The notes beneath the pieces were generated by a model. The model was not told the DNA's origin. It worked only from the letters and a program-made list of their open reading frames with translations, and searched no databases. This document shows, piece by piece, positions 851 to 18,483 of a stretch of DNA of 64,000 nt (its first letter is position 1; the number at the start of each line of letters is the position of its first letter). The stretch spans positions 1 through 64,000 of the forward strand of contig JABARQ010000014.1 of NCBI GenBank assembly GCA_019186985.1, read 5' to 3'. Origin of the DNA: Prosthecobacter sp. (lineage in GTDB: Bacteria; Verrucomicrobiota; Verrucomicrobiia; Verrucomicrobiales; Verrucomicrobiaceae). The translations under genes and the position numbers were made by a program.

Positions 851-1027
851 ATGCCTGAAATCACCCTTTCCGAATGCAAGACGCAGAATCGCGTCATCCA
901 GCTCTTAACCGGGCCGGGTGGTCTGGGCTACGACTACCTCGTGGAATGGAAAAAGCAGGAGAACAATTGCGCTTTCAAACAGGCGATGATGCAGGAACTC
1001 CTCACCGGGAGGACTCGACTGGTATGA
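851..1027 (+). pseudogene. hsdR 5' relic fused to the 3' end of another island gene
   Basis: The frame opens [19 protein letters not shown] and continues through [11 protein letters not shown]. Over its first 39 codons it matches the N-terminus of the intact hsdR at 5424, with 32 of 39 residues identical by eye. After ENNC the similarity stops. The last codons read ELLTGRTRLV and then stop, nearly identical to the last residues (ELLTGRTRLI) of the unknown protein at 3299-3838. The 58-codon frame therefore looks like a deletion scar that joined the beginning of an hsdR copy to the end of a homologue of the 3299 gene. The final TGA overlaps the ATG of the next ORF. Confidence 0.8.
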
Positions 1028-1790: not shown

Positions 1791-3131
1791 ATGCCTGCGC
1801 GAAAGAAAAACGAACGCCTCCCCTGCTTTGAGTGTGACGGCACACTCGAAGCCGTGAAGCTGCCCTACACCACCGAACTGCCGGACATCGGCAAGGTGGT
1901 GATCGAGAACGTGCCCATGATGAAGTGCCCGAAGTGCGGGGACACCGTGCTCGGCGATGAGGGCAACCGCTTCATCGACGCCAGCCTGAACCGGATCACC
2001 GGTGCCATCACCCCGGAGGAGATGAAGCTCTTCCTCAAGCAATATGGCCTGACCCACAAGCAAGCCGCCGCCATCACCGGCTACGGGGAAAAGAACATCT
2101 CCCGCTGGGTGACCGGGAAAATGCGTCCCACGGCGTCCGTCTCGAACTTCTTCCGCCTGCTGATTGCCGACCGGTCCGCCTTTGAAACACTCAAAAGCCG
2201 CCAGTGGGGCGCGTCAGCCGTGGTGAGCTTCCCCACCGAGGAGCGTCAGCCGAGCGCGGAGGAACGAACCGTGCTGAAGCAGGTCGATTATGCCGCGCTG
2301 GCGCGAATCGGGCTGGTGGCCGCCAAAACGACCGCCAAGGATCGGCGCACGGAGCTGTGCCGCCGCTTTGAAGCGTCTGATTTGCTGACCTTGGGCAAAA
2401 AGGCGGAAGACAACCTGCTGGCGATGGCCGCCTACAAGGACACGCAGCAAAAATTCAGCCGCATCAGCGGTGGCCTCTGGATGGAGCTGGGCTGCCGCGC
2501 AGCCGAACGCATCCAGGTGAAGCCCTATGACCGCGACAAGCTGGCGGCGGCAGTGAAGGATCTGCGCGAGCTGACTCAGAAGAAGCTGGCGGAGGTGATC
2601 CCGCAGGTGCGCCAAATCCTGGCCGAGGCCGGGGTGGCGCTGGTGTTTGCCCCCATCATGAAGCAGTCCGCCTTCCGTGGCTGTACGCGGCTGATGTCAC
2701 CCACGAAAGCGGTGATCATCCACAGCATGAAGTATCGCAACCTTGCGCAGTTCTGGCTGATCCTCTTCCACGAGATCGCCCACCTGATGCTGCACATCAC
2801 CGACATGAAGGACATCTTCGCCGAGTATGAGGTCCGCAAGGATGATATTCGCGAGAAGCAAGCGGATGAGTGGGCGCAGGACACGCTGGTCTATAGCGAC
2901 AAGCTGATCGCCTTCAGCGCCCGCTGCCCAAAGCCCAAGCCCGCACAAATCGAGTCTTTTGCCCGTGACGTGAAGGTTCACACCGCCATCGCCGCCGAGG
3001 TCTTCAACAAACGCGCGGGCTCCGAGGTCATCTCCTACTCGCATCTCACCCAGCTTGGCCTCTTTCCAAACCTGTCAGAAGACGAAGCAGCGTTCCTTTG
3101 GAAGAACAATCCCCTGGAAGCTGCGGCATGA
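1791..3131 (+). CDS. MqsA/YgiT-type zinc-finger HTH protein fused to an ImmA/IrrE metallopeptidase
   Basis: The protein has 446 residues. The N-terminus holds a YgiT/MqsA zinc module with two CxxC pairs (Cys12/15 and Cys46/49). An HTH region follows at about 70-120 (TPEEMKLFLKQYGLTHKQAA, then TGYGEKNISRWVTGKMRP). The C-terminal half carries HEIAH at 327-331, the zinc-peptidase signature of the ImmA/IrrE (DUF955) family. Known MqsA antitoxins are about 130 residues and repress their own operon; ImmA-type proteases cleave repressors or partner proteins. The fusion suggests an antitoxin/repressor whose peptidase domain may regulate itself or its partner, which is inference. It probably forms an operon with the ORF at 1378 (11-base gap). 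Confidence 0.8.
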   Translation: MPARKKNERLPCFECDGTLEAVKLPYTTELPDIGKVVIENVPMMKCPKCGDTVLGDEGNRFIDASLNRITGAITPEEMKLFLKQYGLTHKQAAAITGYGEKNISRWVTGKMRPTASVSNFFRLLIADRSAFETLKSRQWGASAVVSFPTEERQPSAEERTVLKQVDYAALARIGLVAAKTTAKDRRTELCRRFEASDLLTLGKKAEDNLLAMAAYKDTQQKFSRISGGLWMELGCRAAERIQVKPYDRDKLAAAVKDLRELTQKKLAEVIPQVRQILAEAGVALVFAPIMKQSAFRGCTRLMSPTKAVIIHSMKYRNLAQFWLILFHEIAHLMLHITDMKDIFAEYEVRKDDIREKQADEWAQDTLVYSDKLIAFSARCPKPKPAQIESFARDVKVHTAIAAEVFNKRAGSEVISYSHLTQLGLFPNLSEDEAAFLWKNNPLEAAA

Positions 3132-3212: not shown

Positions 3213-3298
3213 ACTATCAGTGCTGCCAGTCAGCCCACGAAAAGTCAACCATTCATCATTCGTCCATGTTCAGAGATCATCTTCAACCTGGTGAAAGT

Positions 3299-3838
3299 AT
3301 GAACCGCCAAACGCCTGACATCCTTGCTCTGGCGGCACGCATTGAGGCTTTTCTCATGGGATTGCCCAAAGAACTGCCACGCGGACATTCTGACACGGAA
3401 TGGACGACGCGGATCAAGTGCGGCATCGGGCAGATCGGTCTGGAGGCCGGACTGCTGGCGACCGCGTCCGGCTACCCCACTCCAAGAGACCGGGAATGGC
3501 TCTACGACCTCATCTGGTTTCAAAACTCGCCCGAGAAGCATCTGGAAAGACTGGTGATGGCGCTCGAATCAGAATGGAACCGGCATCCCGAAGAAATCCT
3601 TTACGACTTCGAGAAGCTGCTGGTGGCCCGTGCGGCGCTGAAGGTGATGATCTTCCAGGACAACGGCCGCAACCTGTCGGAACTATGGCAGATGTTCGAG
3701 AAGAGCCTGCAAACCTACGCGCACCACGATCCCATTGAGCTGTATGTGTGGGCCGCCTTCCAGGAGACGGATCATGCGTTCACGGTGAAGACAGCTCGTG
3801 TGGAGGAACTCCTGACCGGGAGGACGCGGTTGATTTGA
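3299..3838 (+). CDS. Hypothetical protein, 179 aa, restriction-island cargo
   Basis: The start was placed at ATG 3299 (MNRQTPDIL), preceded by GGTGAAAG as a plausible ribosome-binding site; an upstream ATG at 3266 is possible. The soluble product is largely alpha-helical, with no recognised catalytic motif (it contains ECxGIGQIG-like and ALKVMIFQD segments). Its last residues, ELLTGRTRLI, recur at the end of the hsdR relic at 1025, showing that a second copy of this gene once lay near position 900. It lies in a run of same-strand genes leading to the UPF0175-like and DUF3800 genes. No function is assigned. Confidence 0.65.
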   Translation: MNRQTPDILALAARIEAFLMGLPKELPRGHSDTEWTTRIKCGIGQIGLEAGLLATASGYPTPRDREWLYDLIWFQNSPEKHLERLVMALESEWNRHPEEILYDFEKLLVARAALKVMIFQDNGRNLSELWQMFEKSLQTYAHHDPIELYVWAAFQETDHAFTVKTARVEELLTGRTRLI

Positions 3839-3912
3839 AGTCGGTGCCTCCTACACGTTGACCCGGCAGCCTCGCCGTTGCCATAATGCCCTCCCCTGCC
3901 AATGTATGCCGC

Positions 3913-4110
3913 ATGAACTGGAAGGACAACATCACCCGCTGGCGCAGCCTGACGCCGGAGGAAAAGCTGCGCCGCAACTGGGAGGCGATCCCGATGGATG
4001 TGTCGCAGAGCATGGCCTTCGAGCGGGAGCCGGTGGCGATGAGCCGGATCCGCGAGACACTCGCCCGGATCGAGCCACCCGCTTTGTTGAAACCACGCAC
4101 GGTTCTTTAG
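3913..4110 (+). CDS. Small hypothetical protein, 65 aa
   Basis: The preferred start is ATG 3913 (MNWKDNITRWRSL); an ATG at 3886 adds nine poorly convincing residues. The product is charged and helical (TPEEKLRRNWEAIP) with a proline-rich end. It stops 8 bases before the UPF0175-like gene, so the two are likely co-transcribed, and their order and size suggest a two-gene cassette. No family is recognised, and a role as partner of the downstream antitoxin-like protein is only positional inference. Confidence 0.55.
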   Translation: MNWKDNITRWRSLTPEEKLRRNWEAIPMDVSQSMAFEREPVAMSRIRETLARIEPPALLKPRTVL

Positions 4111-4407: not shown

Positions 4408-5196
4408 GTGCACCTCATCTACTTCGACGAATCCGGGAACTCAGGGAACAATCTCGACCATACGCAGCAGCCGGTTTTTGTGCTAGCTGCGCTGATTGTG
4501 CCCGTCGCCTCATGGACGGCAATCGAGCGAGATCTGGAGCAGGTGATTGAGGCGGCTTTTCCAACCCCCAGGCCGCTGGATTTCGAGATTCACGCCAACG
4601 AGCTGATTAATGCCCGTGGTTTCTTCCGGCAGTTCCCCATCGCCAAGCGGCTCCAGTTTTATCAAGACTGCATGGCTGTGGCGAAGAGGCATGGCTTGAA
4701 GGTGATTCACCGCGCCATCGCGAAGAAGCGCTATGCGGAATGGCTGCTCCGCACCTTCGGAAAGGGTATCGAGATCAATCCGCACATCGCCGCCTACGCC
4801 CTCGTGGCCCAGGTGGTGAATGCCTACCTCAAGGAACTGCCCGGAAGCCCGTTCGGCATCTTCATCTCGGATGAAAACAAGGAGGTCGTCAAAGATCTCG
4901 AGAAATCTCACCGCGTGCTGCGTGGCACGGCCGGGCCGCTGCATCTGAGCCAGGTGATTGAGAAGGGATTCTTCATCGACTCCCGGAAAAGCCTTCTCCT
5001 TCAGCTCGCGGACCTGTGTGCCTACAGCCTGCGGACAAAAGAGGAGCAGGCTGCCCAGCTCCCGGTGAAGCCACTCAATGCCACCGTGGCCCCGTGGGTG
5101 GAGCCGCTCATGCACCAGGGAAAAGAAGCTCTCCAGGACGTGATCGCCTGGCTCCAGGCTGAACAAGGGCAAAAAAAGGAGCGGCCAGGGACATGA
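4408..5196 (+). CDS. DUF3800 family protein
   Basis: This 262-residue protein starts at GTG 4408 and opens HLIYFDESGNSG, the hallmark of DUF3800 (YxDESG at the end of the first strand). Later acidic positions (FEIHANEL near residue 60; FISDENKE near 150; LQLADLCAYSL near 200) fit the family's RNase H-like fold with conserved Asp/Glu residues, including the usual LQ.AD..ay C-terminal motif. The biochemical function is not established; members are frequent in defence islands and mobile DNA. It lies 49 bases after the UPF0175-like gene and upstream of hsdR. Confidence 0.85.
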   Translation: MHLIYFDESGNSGNNLDHTQQPVFVLAALIVPVASWTAIERDLEQVIEAAFPTPRPLDFEIHANELINARGFFRQFPIAKRLQFYQDCMAVAKRHGLKVIHRAIAKKRYAEWLLRTFGKGIEINPHIAAYALVAQVVNAYLKELPGSPFGIFISDENKEVVKDLEKSHRVLRGTAGPLHLSQVIEKGFFIDSRKSLLLQLADLCAYSLRTKEEQAAQLPVKPLNATVAPWVEPLMHQGKEALQDVIAWLQAEQGQKKERPGT

Positions 5197-5423: not shown

Positions 5424-8400
5424 ATGCCTGAAATCTCCCGCTCCGAACGCAAGACGCAGAACCGCGTGATCCAGCTCTTCACCGGGCCGGGTGGGCTGGG
5501 CTATGATTACCTCGGTGAGTGGAACAAGCGGGAGAACAATCGCTGCATCGAGGTGGAGTTGCTTCGAGCGAATTTACTCAAGCGCGGCTACTCGGAAGCG
5601 CAGATCTCCGCCGCCCTGCAAAAGCTGATGGCCGCAGCCGATGCCACGGGCATCACCCTCTATCAGGCCAACCTGCGCACCTACCAACTGCTCCGCTATG
5701 GCGTGTCCGTGCAGACCGCCGCCGGCAAGCCGAACGAGCAGGTGCATCTGGTGGACTGGGAGAAGCCGGACAACAATGACTTCGCCCTGGCCGAGGAAGT
5801 GACGCTCAAAGGCGGGTACGAACGCCGGCCTGATCTGGTCATCTACCTGAATGGCATCGCTGTCGGGGTGATCGAGCTGAAGCGAGGCGCGGTGAATGTG
5901 GTGGAGGGCATCCGGCAGCTTTGGAGCAATCAGGAGGATGCTTTTAATGTGAGCTTCTTTGCGACGGCTCAGCTTCTCCTGGCCGGGAACGACACGCAGG
6001 GCCTGCGCTACGGCACGGCGACCACGAAGGAGAAGTTTTATGTCGAATGGAAGCCCAAGGCCCCGGATGAAAACACCCCCGGTGGACGGCTGGATCGTCC
6101 GCTGGCCGAGATGTGCGAGAAGACACGCCTGCTGGACCTGATCCGCAACTTCATGATCTTTGACGGAGGCATCAAGAAAGTGCCCCGGCAGCATCAGTAT
6201 GATGGAGCGAAGGCGGCGCAGCTCCGCCTGATCAAGCGTGAGGGCGGGGTCATTTGGCATACGCAGGGCAGCGGCAAGAGCATCCTGATGGTGCTGCTGG
6301 CCAAGTGGCTGCTGGAGCAGGATCCGCAGGCGCGGATTCTGATCGTCACCGACCGCATCGAGCTGAATGACCAGATCATCGGGGTGATGCGCAATGCCGG
6401 GGTCATCGGCGCGGAAGCGGGATCGCCGCTGATTTCATCCCGTGGGGAGTTGGTGACGAAGCTGGCCACACCCAGCCCCAGGCTGCTCTGCGCCCTGCTG
6501 CACAAGTTTGACACCTCTGACCTCACCGGCACGCCACCTCAGGTGCACGGGCAGTTTTACGTCCTGGTGGACGAATGTCACCGCACCCAGGGCGGAGACA
6601 TGAACCGTCAGATGAAGCGCTGGCTGCCCAACGCCATCTTCATCGGCTTCACCGGCACGCCGCTGCTGAGGAAGGACAAACAGACGACAAGGGATGTCTT
6701 CGGCACCTTCATCCATACCTACAAATTCCACGAGGCGGTGGAGGATGGCGTGGTGCTGGACCTGACGTATGAGGCGCGGGACACGGAGCAGAAGCTCGTG
6801 GTGCAGGAGGCGGTGGATGCCTGGTTTGAGGAGAAGACCAGGGGCCTGAACAACTTCCAGAAGGCCGTGCTGCGAAAGCGCTGGGCCAACCTGGAGGAGC
6901 TGATGAGCAGCCAGGAGCGCAAGCAGCGGATCATCGCGGACATCATCAAGGACTTCGGCGTGAAGCCACGCCTCAACAATGACCGAGGCACCGCCATCCT
7001 CGTGGCGAGCAGCATTTACGACGCCTGCCATTATTACCGGCTCTTTCAGGGCACCTCCTTCGGCAAGTATGTCGGCATCATCACCTCCTACGAGCCGCAG
7101 GCGACCAACATCAGCACCGAGCCGCCGGACAGCGACGAGCGCTACAAATTCGACACCTACACGGACCATGTCCTGAAGGGCTGGCCGGGCACCACCGCCT
7201 ACGAGAATGAGATGAAGCGCCGCTTCATCCACGAACCCGCCAATTTGAAGCTGCTGATCGTGGTGAGCAAACTGCTGACAGGCTTTGATGCCCCGAGCTG
7301 CACAGTGATCTATCTCGACAACGAGATGAGGGACCACACGCTCTTCCAAGCCATCTGCCGCACGAACCGGCTCGACGGCGATGACAAGCCCCACGGACAC
7401 ATCGTGGACTACAAGGCACTCTTCCAGGACGTGCAGAACTCCATTTCCGTCTATACCTCGGACGAACTGGACACGGAGGCCTGCGGCAATGACGCCAACG
7501 TGACCGTGAAAGACTGGCTGATGGAAGGAAAGAAGAAGCTGGACACGGCCCGCGAGGCCCTGCGCTACCTCTGCGAGCCTGTGGCGATGCCCAGGCAAGT
7601 GGAGCAATACCTGCTCTACTTCTGCGGCAGCTCCTCCGAACCCAAGGCGCTGAGCGACACCGAACCGCTGCGCATCAACTACTACAAGGCCACCACGACG
7701 CTGCTGCGGGCCTATTCGGACCTCTTCCAGCACCTGGAAGAGGCTGGCTATGGCCTCGAAGAAAGGGTCCGCATCAAGGAGGAGGTGGACTTTCACACCA
7801 ACACCCGGAACGAGATCAAGACGCACTCCGGCGAAGAGCTGGACATCAAACCCTTCGAAGGGGACATGCGCCACCTGATCAACACCTACATCCAGGCGGA
7901 GCATGTGCAGGGGCAGGGCGACCTCAGCGGGCTGACACTCACCGAATTGATCGTGGCCACCGGGATCAACGACGCCATCGCCAAGAAGCTGAACTCCAAG
8001 GGCAAAAGTTCGCGGAACTCCATCGCGGAAGGCATCATCAACAACCTGCGCAAGACCATCATCCGAGATCAACTCACGGACCCGAAGTATTACGAGCAGA
8101 TGTCGAAGCTGCTGGACGATCTCATTGCCCAAAGCCGAACCGATGCCGCTGCCTATGAGGCCTTTTTGAAGCGTGCCGAGGAGCTGGCGCAGAAGCTCGT
8201 CCAAAAAGCCGGGGGCGACCATCCGGCCACGCTGCACGGCAAGCCGGAAGCCATCGTGATCTTCCGCAACCTGGACGACCTGCCAGCGACGACCTTCCAA
8301 TGCCCGCAAGAGGACGAAGCCAAGGCTCAGCTCGCCCTGGAGATCGATCAAACGATGAAGGAGAAGGCGCAGTCTGGCTGGAAAGGCGATCAGGCAAAGG

Positions 8401-8498
8401 AGCGGGTCATTCAGAACTTCCTGCACAAGCTCCTCCAGAAGGATGTCGCCGCGATGCAGGCCTTGTTTGAGATCATCAAGAACCAGCCCGGCTACTGA
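5424..8498 (+). CDS. hsdR: Type I restriction enzyme R subunit (HsdR)
   Basis: HsdR is the ATP-driven translocase/endonuclease of type I restriction-modification complexes. From ATG 5424 ([15 protein letters not shown]) the protein has 1024 residues, a normal HsdR length. The N-terminal nuclease shows PD at 136-137 and ELK at 151-153. The SF2 motor shows TQGSGKS (Walker A, 280-286), VDECH (382-386), FTGTPL, and a motif VI-like segment near [10 protein letters not shown]. The helical C-terminus is complete. The ATG was preferred over an upstream TTG because the relic at 851 starts at the equivalent codon. The stop overlaps the start of the metallopeptidase gene (TGATG). Neither hsdM nor hsdS is in the window, so the complex depends on genes to the left or is incomplete. 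Confidence 0.95.
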
Positions 8499-9547
8499 TG
8501 ACCGAATGCATCCAGATCGGGGAGATCTCGATTCAGGTGACCCGCAAGGCCATCAAGAACGTCCACCTCTCCGTCCACCCGCCGGATGGCCGTGTCACAT
8601 TGACCGCACCCACTTCCACCCGTCTGGACGTGGCCCGGGCGTATGCCATCTCGCGTCTCGGCTGGATTCGCCAGCAGCAGGAGAAACTACGCGGACAGGC
8701 CCGCGAAACGCCGCGCCAGCTGATCGAGCGTGAGAGTCACTACGTGTGGGGCCGCCGCCATTTGATGACCGTCAAACATGCCGATGCCAAACCCAGCGTC
8801 AGACTCGATCATAAGCGCATCACCCTGACCGTGCGTCCGGGCAGCGATGCTCAAAGGCGGGCCGAAGTCGTTCATGAGTGGCACAAGTCACTGCTGCATG
8901 AGGCGGTGCCAGCCATCATCAAGAAATGGCAGCCAAAGCTGAAGGTGCATGTGGCTGGTTACTTCCTGCAGCGGATGAAAACCAAGTGGGTAAGCTGTAA
9001 CCACCGCGCCGGACACATTCGTCTGAACACCGAACTGGTGAAGAAGCCGAAGGACCTCCTCGAATACGTCATCGTTCACGAGATGGTGCATCTCCTCGAA
9101 CCGACTCACAGCTCACGATTTATCGAAATCCTCGAAATGCATTATCCCTCGTGGCGCGAAGCCCGGGCGGAATTGAACGAGTTGCCGCTGAGTGCTGAGG
9201 CGTGGCGGGAATCGGGAGAAACCCAAGCGTCTGTCCCTCTATGGGTAAAAAGAACGCCAGCCGGAGGGGCTGGCGTTCTGAGGAAAAACAGGAGCGGTGA
9301 GCTTACTTTTTCACCCGGGCGACCCGGACACCCATCTTGCTGGCGACGGGGTTGGGCGACTGGCGGGCGTTCATCCAGTATTTGGCCCCGGGTTCGTCCG
9401 GCTGTTCATTGCGGTCCAGAAGGCCGGGAGGGGCGTCGCTGTGATCGCGGGTCAGAACTCCAAGGAGGCCGTCTGACTCAACCGTTCTTTCGGCAGCGGT
9501 GCCGGAGGAGGCTGGAGCGTTGTCCGCCTTCACATGCCGGTAACTGA
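8498..9547 (+). CDS. SprT/YgjP-like zinc metallopeptidase with read-through C-terminal tail
   Basis: This is an M48-type YgjP/SprT-like protein (DUF45) with HEMVH at 194-198 followed by the expected third ligand region (EPTHSSRF). Family members are about 235-245 residues and end near the motif seen here as YPSWREARAELNELPLS. The frame then continues about 110 residues of Arg/Gly/Ser-rich low-quality sequence. It passes through a perfect hairpin (9251-9279) and antisense through most of the lipoprotein gene at 9303-9677. The natural stop has apparently been lost, and the island/chromosome junction probably lies near 9220-9250. Such peptidases are commonly the last gene of hsdR operons; coupling by TGATG supports this. 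Confidence 0.8.
   Translation: MTECIQIGEISIQVTRKAIKNVHLSVHPPDGRVTLTAPTSTRLDVARAYAISRLGWIRQQQEKLRGQARETPRQLIERESHYVWGRRHLMTVKHADAKPSVRLDHKRITLTVRPGSDAQRRAEVVHEWHKSLLHEAVPAIIKKWQPKLKVHVAGYFLQRMKTKWVSCNHRAGHIRLNTELVKKPKDLLEYVIVHEMVHLLEPTHSSRFIEILEMHYPSWREARAELNELPLSAEAWRESGETQASVPLWVKRTPAGGAGVLRKNRSGELTFSPGRPGHPSCWRRGWATGGRSSSIWPRVRPAVHCGPEGREGRRCDRGSELQGGRLTQPFFRQRCRRRLERCPPSHAGN
9251..9279 (-). terminator. Rho-independent terminator for the minus-strand lipoprotein gene
   Basis: A perfect 12-bp stem (AGAACGCCAGCC at 9251-9262, GGCTGGCGTTCT at 9268-9279) with a 5-base loop is preceded on the + strand by AAAAA, giving a T-run on the minus strand. It lies 23 bases past the stop of the lipoprotein gene at 9303, so it serves that gene. 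On the + strand no T-tract follows. Confidence 0.8.
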
Positions 9548-9677
9548 CGCCCATTTTCGATCCGATGGGCGAGGTGTTGACCGAAGAATACCGGCGGCCG
9601 TCCTTTTCACCGGAGGAACAGGAGGCAAGCAGCAGGGCGGCAGGCAGCAGGGGGAGGATCTTGGCAATCGAAGGCAT
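9303..9677 (-). CDS. Small lipoprotein, 124 aa
   Basis: The N-terminus is a lipoprotein signal: a hydrophobic core followed by LLASC, so the mature protein begins at Cys20 and is probably membrane-anchored. The remainder is polar. An internal similarity, SPIGSKMGVSYRHVK against NPVASKMGVRVARVK, suggests two copies of a short unit. No family is recognised. The gene is followed by its own terminator. Most of it is overlapped antisense by the abnormal tail of the metallopeptidase frame, which supports this gene rather than that tail as the real coding sequence. Confidence 0.8.
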   Translation of the reverse strand: MPSIAKILPLLPAALLLASCSSGEKDGRRYSSVNTSPIGSKMGVSYRHVKADNAPASSGTAAERTVESDGLLGVLTRDHSDAPPGLLDRNEQPDEPGAKYWMNARQSPNPVASKMGVRVARVKK

Positions 9678-9724
9678 GGGAGACTGACGGGATGGAGCAG
9701 GAAGCTGCCCAGGATGTGCTCGCT

Positions 9725-10042
9725 TCAGGGAACCAGGGCGTCCGGGGAGTCAACGAAGAAGTCCTTCAGCTCCGTCTCCGTGGAATTGGTGCGGATGCCT
9801 TCCAGGCGGCGGCGGCTGCCGCGGTCCGTGCGGGGGCTGTTGGCGGCTCGGCCGACGAGGTCGGTGAGGATCGGCGCGGCGACCACGGCGCTGGCGGCGA
9901 GCAGGGTGAGGGAGACGATGTTGGAGGTGCTGCGGCTCATGCCACGTCCGAAGAGAATGCCGAGGGCGCAGCCTGCGGCGGCGGGGGCGATCACGTTGGC
10001 GTAGGTTTCGTAACGGCTTTCGGCGGTGGTTTCTGGAGGCAT
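9725..10042 (-). CDS. Small membrane protein, 105 aa
   Basis: From ATG 10042 (MPPETTAESRYETYANV) the protein has two predicted hydrophobic segments, about 17-34 and 42-62, and then a basic stretch (RTDRGSRRRLEGIR) and a soluble tail. The topology suggests an inner-membrane hairpin with a cytoplasmic C-terminus. Longer upstream frames merely run antisense to manC. The start lies 68 bases from the divergently transcribed mannose-1-phosphate guanylyltransferase gene. No family is recognised. Confidence 0.7.
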   Translation of the reverse strand: MPPETTAESRYETYANVIAPAAAGCALGILFGRGMSRSTSNIVSLTLLAASAVVAAPILTDLVGRAANSPRTDRGSRRRLEGIRTNSTETELKDFFVDSPDALVP

Positions 10043-10109
10043 GACAAGACATGATAGCAGATCCCCACATTCTCCAAAGTGGAAATTGCCCGGCTGGGCG
10101 AACACTTCC

Positions 10110-11201
10110 ATGATGACTCGAATGACCCCCGCGACGAACTCCCGATACGCACTCATCCTCGCCGGCGGCAGCGGCCAGCGTTTCTGGCCCATCAGCCGTG
10201 ACGCCCTGCCCAAGCAGCTGCTGAAGCTTTTCGGCGACAAGACGCTGCTGGAGATGACGGTCGAGCGCCTGGACGGCCTGGTGCCGAAGGAAAACATCCT
10301 GATCCTCACCAACAAGCAGCAGGAGGCGGGTGTGAGGACGCTGCTGCCCCAGCTGCCCGAGGGCAACATCATCGCCGAGCCCGAGAAGCGTGACACCGCG
10401 CCTGCCATCGCCCTGGCGGTCGGCTGGGTGGTCGCGCGTGATCCAGCGGCGACGATGATGGTCCTGCCGGCGGATCACCTGATCCAGAACAAGGCGGAGT
10501 TTCAGCGTGTGCTGACCGTGGCCATGCAGGCGGCCGAGGCCGGCAACGCCCTGGTCACCGTGGGCATCAAGCCCACCTGGCCCTGTCCGAGTTATGGTTA
10601 TGTCGAGCGCGGCCGGCGCGCCGCCCTTCCCGGAGTGGACGACGGCGGCGTCTATGAGGTCGTGCGCTTCCGGGAGAAGCCCAACCCCGACCTCGCCGAG
10701 CATTTCATCAGCCAGGGCAGCTTCACCTGGAACGCCGGCATGTTCATCTGGACGATCCCGGCCATCTTCAGCGAGATGAGCCGTCACTGCCCCGCCCTGG
10801 CCGACTTCATCTCCGAGCTGCGGGGTTCCAAGGACTTCATGGCCACCGTGGCGCGTCAGTTTGGCAAGCTGCCGAAGCTGTCCATCGACTACGCCCTGAT
10901 GGAGCGTGCCTCCCGCGTGCTGAACGTCGAGGCCACCTTTGACTGGGACGACGTGGGCAACTGGACCAGCGTCGGGCGCTATCTGAAGTGCGATGACGAC
11001 GGCAACCAGCACAACTGTGCCTTCTCCCAGATCGGCGCCGCCAACAACCTGGTGTTCTCCCAGACCGGCCAGCATGTGGCGCTGCTCGGCGTGCAGGATC
11101 TGATCGTGGTGTCCGCCAAGGACGCCCTGCTGGTGACCAGCCGCGCCCATGCGGAAAACATCAAGAAGCTCGGCGACCTGCTGCCCCGCGAGTTGAAGTG
11201 A
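10110..11201 (+). CDS. manC: Mannose-1-phosphate guanylyltransferase
   Basis: The enzyme makes GDP-mannose from GTP and mannose-1-phosphate for surface polysaccharide synthesis. The N-terminus carries the nucleotidyltransferase signature LAGGSGQRFWPISR with the following lysine (LPKQLLKLFG). Further conserved segments are LPADHLI, RFREKPN, TWNAGMFIW and DWDDVGNW. At 363 residues it is the single-domain form, without the C-terminal cupin isomerase domain of bifunctional ManC/AlgA. The start was set at ATG 10110 (MMTRMTPATNSRYAL); ATG 10122 is also possible. The longer upstream frame is unlikely because it overlaps the divergent gene. Confidence 0.92.
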   Translation: MMTRMTPATNSRYALILAGGSGQRFWPISRDALPKQLLKLFGDKTLLEMTVERLDGLVPKENILILTNKQQEAGVRTLLPQLPEGNIIAEPEKRDTAPAIALAVGWVVARDPAATMMVLPADHLIQNKAEFQRVLTVAMQAAEAGNALVTVGIKPTWPCPSYGYVERGRRAALPGVDDGGVYEVVRFREKPNPDLAEHFISQGSFTWNAGMFIWTIPAIFSEMSRHCPALADFISELRGSKDFMATVARQFGKLPKLSIDYALMERASRVLNVEATFDWDDVGNWTSVGRYLKCDDDGNQHNCAFSQIGAANNLVFSQTGQHVALLGVQDLIVVSAKDALLVTSRAHAENIKKLGDLLPRELK

Positions 11202-11251
11202 CCTTCGATCCCGCGATTGCCAGGCGGCCACGACGCACGTAATCCCGCTGC

Positions 11252-11518
11252 ATGAATCCTGAATTCGGCACCCTCCAGGCCCTTCTCAAGCGCAGGCTCC
11301 AGCTCATCGCGGACCATGAGTTTCGCGATGTCGATCCGACCGGCCACCTCGCCGCCCTTCAGCAGGTCTCCGAACTGATCACGTCCGAGCATCACCGGCT
11401 CAGGCCCGTGCTGCCTGGACGCCTCAGCCATTTCCTCCAGCAGGCGAGCTTTTCCAAGGCGCTGGAGTTTCTGGAGGAGGACAGCCGGCTGGGCTCAGGC
11501 TTTGCGCAGGAGCATTGA
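11252..11518 (+). CDS. Hypothetical protein, 88 aa
   Basis: This small, soluble, mostly helical protein (TLQALLKRRLQLIADHEF; LAALQQVSELIT) starts at ATG 11252, 50 bases after manC, and is probably co-transcribed with it. Its 3' end overlaps the convergent symporter gene by 24 bases. It has no cysteine pairs, signal peptide or membrane segment. I do not recognise a family; the composition and amphipathic pattern look like a genuine protein. Confidence 0.65.
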   Translation: MNPEFGTLQALLKRRLQLIADHEFRDVDPTGHLAALQQVSELITSEHHRLRPVLPGRLSHFLQQASFSKALEFLEEDSRLGSGFAQEH

Positions 11519-16239: not shown

Positions 16240-18483
16240 TCAGCGTGGCGAAGCCGGAAGGTCGCCAAGCTGCTGCCTCAACGTGCTTTGAGGAGCCTTC
16301 AGCAGGGACGAACCCTGGACAGGGTCAGGAGGTGGAGGCAGGGCTGCAGGCTCAGGAACGACCACGGCTTCAGGGACGGAGGCGGCCTTGGTCAGTGGCT
16401 GTGCCCTGGGCGCCGGCGAAGCCGAGGCTGGACGTATGTCACGAACGGAAGGCTGCGGACCGGAAACCTCGGCCTTTTGCTGCCACATGGCGTCCCCGGA
16501 GAAGTGCGCCAGCATCGCCCCGGCGATCATGGAGCCGCCGAGGAAGACGGCGGCGCGCAGCCAGAATGGGACAAACTCGTCAGGAGGCAGCAGCGCCTCA
16601 TCCGCATGAATGGTCGGCGGAGCGTCGGCCGCCGTCTTGGCCCAGTCAGGTCCTGAAACAGGCGTGGTGACGCTGGTGCCGCGAAACAGCAGTTCGGCAA
16701 AACCCACGCTGGGCCGATCTCCGGTGCTGGGGCCTCCCTCGGTCAGTGCCGCCATGAGGGGAGGATCGGCGAGGGGTGAGACCGGGTCCTTGGGCATGGG
16801 GGTGGCCTGGATCTGCTGAAGACCGGCCGTGCGGCTGCGAACCAGCCTGGGCTTCACAGGTTCCAGCGGGCCGGAGGGAATGGACTCCACAGGCTTCACC
16901 AGATCATGGTGGTGCACCAACCGGGCATAACGGGCCAGAAACTCCCCGCGCTTCGTGCACATTCCGTCCCGGCTTTTGGCAATCTCCTCATCCAGGAGCC
17001 CGGCCACCAGCTCAATTTCGCGTCCTGTGCCAGGTGTTTCAGTAACCGCCCCGGGCAGCGGTTCCAGGGCCAGCAGGAATCGGCCGACGGCGGACAGCCA
17101 GGCAGCATCCCAGGAGGGCGACGCATCTGAACGCCGTGGTGCAGAAAGGAGCAGGGAGGGATCGGTGCCACGACCCGCCATCGAGGCCAGGGTGGGATGC
17201 GCCCTCAGCATGATCGAAAAGGCCGGCCAGTCCGTCAGCTTGGTCAGCAGGAGCTTCAGGCTGCGCGCATCCTCCCGGGGAAAGCCGGTCAGCAGGTGGA
17301 TGTCCTCCAGGCGCAGCCGGGAGGGCTCAAGCCCTGAGCTTTCAAGCTGGGTGAGCGCCGCATCAAGGCCGGCGAGCACCAGGTAGGTTTCATGCACGTT
17401 CAACGCCCGGCGTTGAAGCAGGAGGTCGGCCAGGCTGATGCCTTCCACGACTTCTTCCGCAAGGCAAAGGATGCCGTCGGCCTCATGCACCAGGACCACG
17501 GGGATGATGCCCGGAAAGCTGCCCTTGTTCTCCAGCCGGCAGGCACGTTCCTGCATGGCCTGCACCACCTCCGTGGCCAGCCGGACCGGAGGCACCTGCT
17601 CCACCAGCACGGCCCGGCCCGTCTTGGTCAGCGTGCCGCGCATGGCATAGGGGTTGGTCATGTCCAGGCGCTGGCTTTGAATGCGCACCCGGTTCACCAG
17701 GGCGCGCGCAACCTCCTGATAGCCCGCAAGCTGCGGCGCCAGCAGCGGTCGCGGCTTCAGCGCCGTCGGAATTTCGACCCCTTCCCTGCCCTCGGCCATC
17801 CGGCTCAGGGCCGCACGCAGCTCCTTCAACGCGGCCAGCACCTCCCCCCCCGTCGATTCCAGGCAGGAGGACAGCAGTTCGACCAGGTCCGCCGAGGCCG
17901 CCACAGCCGATGCTTTTTCCTCCAGAAAGCTCCTGAGAAACCCGGCCTGCCTGGCAAGCGGAACCTTCGGCGCACGCGCCTGATTTGAAGCTGCTGCCGT
18001 CAACACATAGTCAGCCACATGCACCTGCAGCGCCGCAGCACCGGTCTGCACCACCCGCAGTTGTTCCAGGGAGCGGCAGGACGCCGCCTCATTCCTCTCG
18101 GCCAGAGCCAGGACGGCCTCCACGGCACGCGAGGCCAGCAGCAGCGCCAGCCAGCCGGGAAGCTCGGGCTGCCGCGCCAGATAGGACGCCAGCGTCTCAC
18201 CATCGACATTGCCCGTGATGTAATACGGGTTGCCCTCGTCCTCGCCAAAGTCCACAAGGCGCGCCAGCAGCGCATGCCCGCCCTCCTGCTGACGACGGCA
18301 GGCCGCCTCAAAGGATGCACGTTCCTTGAGCGGCTCCAGCATCACATGACACTGCACGAACTCCAGGCGGCGCGTGTCAAAGCCGAGCACGTTGACCTGC
18401 TCCGCATTGCGGGTCAGCTCCACGTTGTTCCCGTCCCCGTCCTGGACGATGAGATAGTGCCTGAAAAGACTGGGTTCCGGCAT
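16240..18483 (-). CDS. Membrane-anchored tandem pseudokinase-like protein
   Basis: A 747-residue protein from ATG 18483 (MPEPSLFRHYLIVQD). Residues around 60-190 resemble the N- to mid-lobe of a Ser/Thr kinase: LARLVDFGEDEGNPYYITGN, then DGETLASYLARQPELPG. Where the HRDxxxxN loop should be there is CRSLEQLRVV, and no DFG is found, so catalysis looks lost. A second similar region lies around 330-480 (LAEEVVEGISLADLL, then LRLEDIHLL). One transmembrane helix (FWLRAAVFLGGSMIAGAML) near residue 650 is followed by an Ala/Pro-rich, probably periplasmic tail. The role is presumably regulatory or scaffold. Upstream frame sequence is antisense to the cytochrome gene and excluded. Confidence 0.6.
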   Translation of the reverse strand: MPEPSLFRHYLIVQDGDGNNVELTRNAEQVNVLGFDTRRLEFVQCHVMLEPLKERASFEAACRRQQEGGHALLARLVDFGEDEGNPYYITGNVDGETLASYLARQPELPGWLALLLASRAVEAVLALAERNEAASCRSLEQLRVVQTGAAALQVHVADYVLTAAASNQARAPKVPLARQAGFLRSFLEEKASAVAASADLVELLSSCLESTGGEVLAALKELRAALSRMAEGREGVEIPTALKPRPLLAPQLAGYQEVARALVNRVRIQSQRLDMTNPYAMRGTLTKTGRAVLVEQVPPVRLATEVVQAMQERACRLENKGSFPGIIPVVLVHEADGILCLAEEVVEGISLADLLLQRRALNVHETYLVLAGLDAALTQLESSGLEPSRLRLEDIHLLTGFPREDARSLKLLLTKLTDWPAFSIMLRAHPTLASMAGRGTDPSLLLSAPRRSDASPSWDAAWLSAVGRFLLALEPLPGAVTETPGTGREIELVAGLLDEEIAKSRDGMCTKRGEFLARYARLVHHHDLVKPVESIPSGPLEPVKPRLVRSRTAGLQQIQATPMPKDPVSPLADPPLMAALTEGGPSTGDRPSVGFAELLFRGTSVTTPVSGPDWAKTAADAPPTIHADEALLPPDEFVPFWLRAAVFLGGSMIAGAMLAHFSGDAMWQQKAEVSGPQPSVRDIRPASASPAPRAQPLTKAASVPEAVVVPEPAALPPPPDPVQGSSLLKAPQSTLRQQLGDLPASPR

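Follow-up and report, generated by a model that had tools for sequence, protein, structure and literature searches.

This locus raises the question of how the start of a restriction gene came to be joined to the end of another gene, and what such a join records. The window, the whole 64,000-nucleotide stretch of DNA analysed, comprises the left end of contig C19 in a Prosthecobacter genome of 5.9 Mb. Adjoining a type I restriction-modification (R-M) system, it holds an open frame of 58 codons (58 residues) at 851-1027, which the initial annotation described as a deletion scar joining the 5' end of hsdR to the 3' end of the gene at 3299, left by an ancestral tandem arrangement that had lost its middle or exchanged segments. 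Features lie on the + strand unless otherwise stated.

The first 39 codons (851-967) correspond, as had been claimed, to the beginning of the window's intact hsdR (5424), with 32 of 39 residues identical. A whole-genome search aligns 851-970 with 5424-5543 at 87% nucleotide identity over 120 nt (E=2.3e-35), and in local alignment the similarity starts at the ATG even when 70 upstream bases are added on both sides. The rest of the frame (971-1027) matches the end of hsdS, comprising its last ~18 codons and the stop. It scores 41.4 bits with an HMM of the HsdS C-terminus, which in relatives reads KQAMMQELLTGRTRL or a close variant at or near the protein end. Positions 955-1017 are 84% identical in nucleotides (E=1.6e-12) to the hsdS 3' end of L016, a locus from a Prosthecobacter debontii MAG that is the closest relative and whose hsdR is 93% identical to that of the window. 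Nucleotide alignment of both ends, which the initial annotation had proposed as its check, was run and gives similarity far better than chance at each end, and chance was rejected for both the hsdR part (E=2e-35) and the hsdS part (1.6e-12). The last codons had been attributed to the end of gene 3299. This similarity is real (990-1033 versus 3801-3844, 79.5% nucleotide identity, E=3e-4), but the donor is hsdS; gene 3299 was rejected as donor, its own tail being an hsdS remnant as well.

The hsdR and hsdS alignments overlap at 955-966, inside a junction zone (955-973) containing GCGGGAGAA, which is common to the two genes. By eye, the window's intact hsdR and the L016 hsdS both carry GCGGGAGAA in the same frame at the join. 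With these genes as stand-ins for the true parental alleles, we propose that the in-frame outcome would be explained by the shared GCGGGAGAA. The alignments show 851-1027 to be, by homology, an hsdR 5' stub joined in frame to an hsdS 3' tail, and the broader claim that such a join between an hsdR 5' end and another gene's 3' end records rearrangement of a type I R-M island holds. Other homes and donors for the chimera were considered and rejected. Below E 0.01 it matches, within its own genome, only C19 and the central repeat of an hsdS on contig C44; it has no phage match, and in the 17 plasmid records with a match, the matching part seems to be an ordinary hsdR start or hsdS end.

The contig edge upstream is occupied by a repeat (1-126, - strand) that truncates the next gene and was taken as the end of an IS, which we presume to belong to the ISL3 family. 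Positions 1-126 recur at 100% identity at C39:54620-54745 of the same genome, and 2-126 at C32:1-125. The truncated gene, just before the hsdR stub, encodes an AAA ATPase that PADLOC lists as a defence candidate (PDC-S06), and only its 3' part (127-835) is left after what seems to be interruption by the IS; 119-832 matches PDLC04889 at 463-689 of 693 (E=1.7e-81), and its matches in four other genomes (288 searched) lie in open frames of 681-737 codons. The stop of the chimera overlaps, as ATGA, the start of the following accessory gene X (1024-1329, 101 aa), homologues of which stand directly before hsdR in two other hsd operons, at 67% in G316 (inside a 283-aa gene) and at 63% in L133. Protein X has its own start in the window and in L133, and in L105 it corresponds to the C-terminal part of a longer frame (283 aa); it has no match in Pfam, NCBIfam or PADLOC. 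It is followed by a gene for an MqsA/HTH and M78-peptidase-like protein (1791-3131) that resembles PD-Lambda-2_B (PADLOC E=7.5e-26; Pfam MqsA and HTH_3 reach the cut-off and M78 falls below it). Further downstream are a DUF3800 gene (4408-5196, Pfam E=1.2e-16), the intact hsdR (5424-8498, TIGR00348 469.7 bits against a cut-off of 284.55) and, directly after hsdR as in relatives, a YgjP-like (M48/YgjP-like) metallopeptidase gene (8498-9547, Pfam E=3.8e-52).

Gene 3299 (3266-3838) is itself a second chimera. Its function is unassigned, its protein has matches in only two other genomes among 387 searched, and it ends in the last ~12 codons of hsdS (3801-3838), as judged by the match to L016. The match continues without gaps for 302 bases at 90% nucleotide identity (3801-4102 versus L016 808-1109), covering the L016 hsdS 3' end and the downstream ORF; the window counterpart of this small ORF (3886-4110) is 89% identical in amino acids. 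The homology to L016 goes no further than 4102, the position of a third junction. Read by homology, the window holds two hsdS 3' remnants and hence two scars, one behind the hsdR stub and one behind gene 3299. When window 3886-4110 is compared with L016 893-1650, the small ORF is followed in L016 by a gene with an HPFRDFNGR motif, which we take to be Fic-like; the Fic part is absent from the window, where the homology has ended.

No HsdS domain is present on contig C19, and no scanned ORF upstream is hsdM or hsdS, the contig beginning at base 1 of the window. The end of contig C44 carries hsdM and a cut hsdS, which is the hsdS most similar to the chimera in this genome. The repeat that truncates the PDC-S06 gene and the one that cuts hsdS at the C44 end (L091, about 17831-17957) are different, probably both IS elements; a C44-C19 linkage was considered and is unproven. 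With that hsdS cut, an intact hsdS partner for the hsdR at 5424 may be missing from the assembly.

Native gene order was compared in 76 loci, made up of 75 hsdR relatives and L105, using one HsdM and one HsdR as probes. Both hsdS and hsdR were found in 63 of the 76, with hsdS first and on the same strand in 63/63. The intact ancestor expected by the initial annotation, in which a 3299-type gene would come after hsdR, was not observed. The distance from hsdS to hsdR spans 15 to 5757 bases in the 63 loci, and long gaps hold accessory genes. The family order is hsdM-hsdS-(slot)-hsdR-metallopeptidase, where the slot contains exchangeable, often defence-type genes; in the window these are the PDC-S06 and PD-Lambda-2_B-like genes (PADLOC) and the DUF3800 gene (Pfam). 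Because hsdS natively precedes hsdR, an hsdR start upstream of an hsdS end cannot arise by deletion inside one operon and needs a tandem pair, a duplication or the joining of foreign DNA. One locus from a Nitrospira MAG (L020, 2738-7384) has hsdS and hsdR in a single stop-free frame of 1549 codons, possibly an HsdS-HsdR fusion protein.

Relics, defined as hsdR 5' stubs or orphan hsdS 3' tails, were sought with an HMM built on 74 HsdR N-termini, including that of the intact hsdR in the window, and with HMMs for the HsdS tail and central repeat, built without the window tails but with the orphan tails from other loci. All were applied in six frames, first to 90 sequences and subsequently to 20. 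With the window excluded, slots were definable in 75 loci (59 in the first set and 16 in the second, where borders were entered by hand). L162 and L164 have contigs as long as those of L077 and L038 and were taken as repeats of them, which leaves 73 distinct slots, some others being mutually close relatives. Relics are present in 13 of these 73 slots. Extra hsdR 5' matches of at least 8.5 bits in the 75 loci are L172 (37.3), L060 (30.2), L133 (28.6), L066 (28.1), L068 (12.7), L074 (11.9) and L034 (8.7). All seven lie in the slot on the coding (+) strand, although slots make up 6.35% of the two-strand space (chance about 4e-9); this limit was picked after seeing the list, and at 10 bits the result is 6/6 with a chance of 6.6e-8. 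The next-best extra match (L035, 8.1 bits) falls outside the slot.

Orphan hsdS tails were located in the slots of L038 (two), L040, L063, L132, L163, L165 and L172, while the weaker tails of L170 (7.8 bits) and L180 (10.0 bits) were excluded from the relic count. The L165 tail is fused in frame to an apparent accessory-gene start, like that of gene 3299. Copies of the hsdS 3' end 76 codons long follow hsdS twice in L038 (7965-8430, 238 bases apart) and once in L040 (7324-7551); these tails are of the same kind and may stem from one common event. Stubs measure about 11 to 52 codons and tails about 12 to 45. Tails that flank accessory genes prompted consideration of site-specific integration at the hsdS 3' end, which was rejected because the varying lengths indicate no fixed core site. 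Most stubs outside the window show no hsdS tail, and an hsdS-like tail proposed at the end of the L060 frame is without HMM support.

Another species of the genus provides an equivalent of the chimera. The slot of L133 (from G415) contains, after a GmrSD-type gene, a 56-codon frame, MHEQSHPDYRTQNLVIAFFTHKSRADCIGEWNKWKKPCAINQAMLKGLFTGRTRFL, in which the chimera recurs in an identical register. An ungapped comparison spanning the junction finds 61 of 84 nucleotides in agreement with the window, and both frames have a Cys at the joint; both also have 27 codons from EW to the stop and an ATGA overlap with the next gene. This likeness may reflect either a common ancestor or recurrent joining at one and the same short homology. 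Outside the window, L133 alone yielded a complete in-frame chimera; L068 appears to contain a degraded version, interrupted by frameshifts and stops, whose hsdS part was read by eye. Separately, the hsdR stubs of L133 (12425-12535) and L138 (9826-9936) both lack five residues (LGYxYLGEW to C[IL]GEW) that are kept in the aligned intact HsdR starts, hinting at common descent or repeated slippage.

These observations are probably best accounted for if 851-1027 is a fossil left by modules that replaced one another in turn at a site known for defence genes. A foreign hsd segment, consisting of an hsdS 3' end, accessory genes and hsdR, would recombine with the resident operon by homology on the hsdR side, and its left side would be joined by short homology into the resident hsdR or an accessory gene. 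The old hsdR start would be left as a stub, with the new module added behind it. As a guess, the in-frame state and ATGA overlap of both chimeras may have been kept to preserve translational coupling.

The alleles of the stubs bear on whether the extra hsdR starts could instead be local copies. In a tandem duplication or circle junction, unequal exchange between the hsdR 5' and hsdS 3' ends would double the slot, after which the two copies would diverge or be replaced; one such event would suffice to make the junction out of a single operon. Stubs produced in this way should resemble their own hsdR most. This is true of the window and L172 stubs, for which the own hsdR ranks 1 of 91 references (95/99 nucleotides identical in L172), and local duplication would fit both. 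For L133, L060 and L066 it is not true, the own hsdR ranking 82, 41 and 19; the ranks of 44 in L074 and 45 in L034 mean little, since these stubs of 11-14 codons are weak alone. In L133 and L060 the stub is clearly of another hsdR subfamily than the downstream gene, which counts against duplication, an unlikely explanation; the difference is weaker in L066, L074 and L034. The mixed ranks fit repeated replacement by hsdS-end/accessory/hsdR segments from near or distant donors. The same final order would result if two complete hsd systems in tandem had been fused by a deletion that began at codon 39 in the first hsdR and extended to the end of the second hsdS; GCGGGAGAA, in the same frame, is common to the likely parents of this join. 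None of the 76 loci showed a second hsdM or a second hsdR, with a single HsdM and a single HsdR as probes and many stretches truncated at contig ends. Parts of the join are matched in 9 of 68 family genomes, the own genome included, and the regions of seven of the nine were inspected. Tandem deletion also needs an extra unseen step each time, yet stubs recur. The tandem that the initial annotation envisaged is not in evidence among these loci, and a deletion between tandem hsd systems keeps a minority chance; recurrence in other genomes points rather to repeated replacement of modules between hsdS and hsdR.

Selection for a functional small protein with an HsdR N-terminus and an HsdS C-terminal end, for example a complex modulator or translational bridge, would account for the open frame and for the shared register and overlap in two diverged species. 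It is nevertheless very improbable, as replacements affect sites conserved in the HsdR alignment (R6L, R9C, R36Q), the L068 version is frameshifted and most other stubs have no hsdS tail. The stub differs from the own hsdR by 6 silent and 9 replacement changes, compared with 5 silent and 2 replacement changes between the own and L016 hsdR; on these small counts constraint on the stub looks relaxed. The chimera differs from its assumed parent at 22 sites, and when neutral histories with 20 random changes were simulated, 52% of them kept the frame open. The 851-1027 frame most likely has no protein function of its own.

Serial module replacement, the preferred reading, has a mechanistic parallel in homology-facilitated illegitimate recombination, which produces one homologous end and one end joined by microhomology. 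The predicted end types would agree with the proposal; no donor/recipient strain pair was seen. Recombination at conserved HsdS repeats is known to shuffle hsdS and create fusion genes in R-M loci, changing target recognition. The chimeras described here differ from such products in retaining only the last codons of hsdS and in having hsdR or an accessory gene as the other partner.

The slot itself is already known, as far as the accessible parts of the sources describe it. The rlo genes of Campylobacter jejuni have long been placed between hsdS and hsdR (PMC4619093, PMC5183652), and the GmrSD-like pair TgvAB of Vibrio cholerae VPI-2 is embedded in a type I operon (PMC11411939). The RptR-RMS-DarTG-M48 island of Escherichia coli E2348/69 is arranged hsdM-hsdS-darTG-hsdR-M48, at a site its authors call a potential recombination hotspot (PMC12255303); it shares with the window family the order hsdM-hsdS-(accessory)-hsdR-M48 metallopeptidase and the embedding of defence genes. 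Eight E. coli loci were examined, with darTG in the slot of five and a DUF262 gene pair in that of three. Unlike the window family, their slots have no stub or tail above 8 bits, and none occurs in two plasmid loci (10 further loci, drawn from 275 and 35 matching records). The consulted text on the slot offers no mechanism for its turnover (PMC12255303), and no hsdR-stub/hsdS-tail joins are described in the literature covered, which consists of titles, abstracts and some passages, mostly from outside subscription papers.

The stubs and tails seem to mark past exchanges directly in the sequence. Any genome can be scanned for them, and they might allow acquisitions to be ordered and exchanged modules to be identified. 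More tentatively, the conserved hsdS end and hsdR start could act as homology arms, making the type I operon an integrase-free capture platform. Defence genes would then move in modules with an hsdS 3' tail at one border and an hsdR 5' start at the other. These modules would accumulate one after another, and each acquisition would be recorded by an hsdR5'::hsdS3' join. Two loci carry relics away from any recognised hsdR. In L138, a stub some 36 codons long stands within 19.9 kb in which no hsdR was found. L136 contains at 9376-11454 an isolated hsdS tail, a GmrSD-type gene and an hsdR stub, with no hsd gene recognised in 16 kb, and this module looks as if it had moved as a unit or been left behind.
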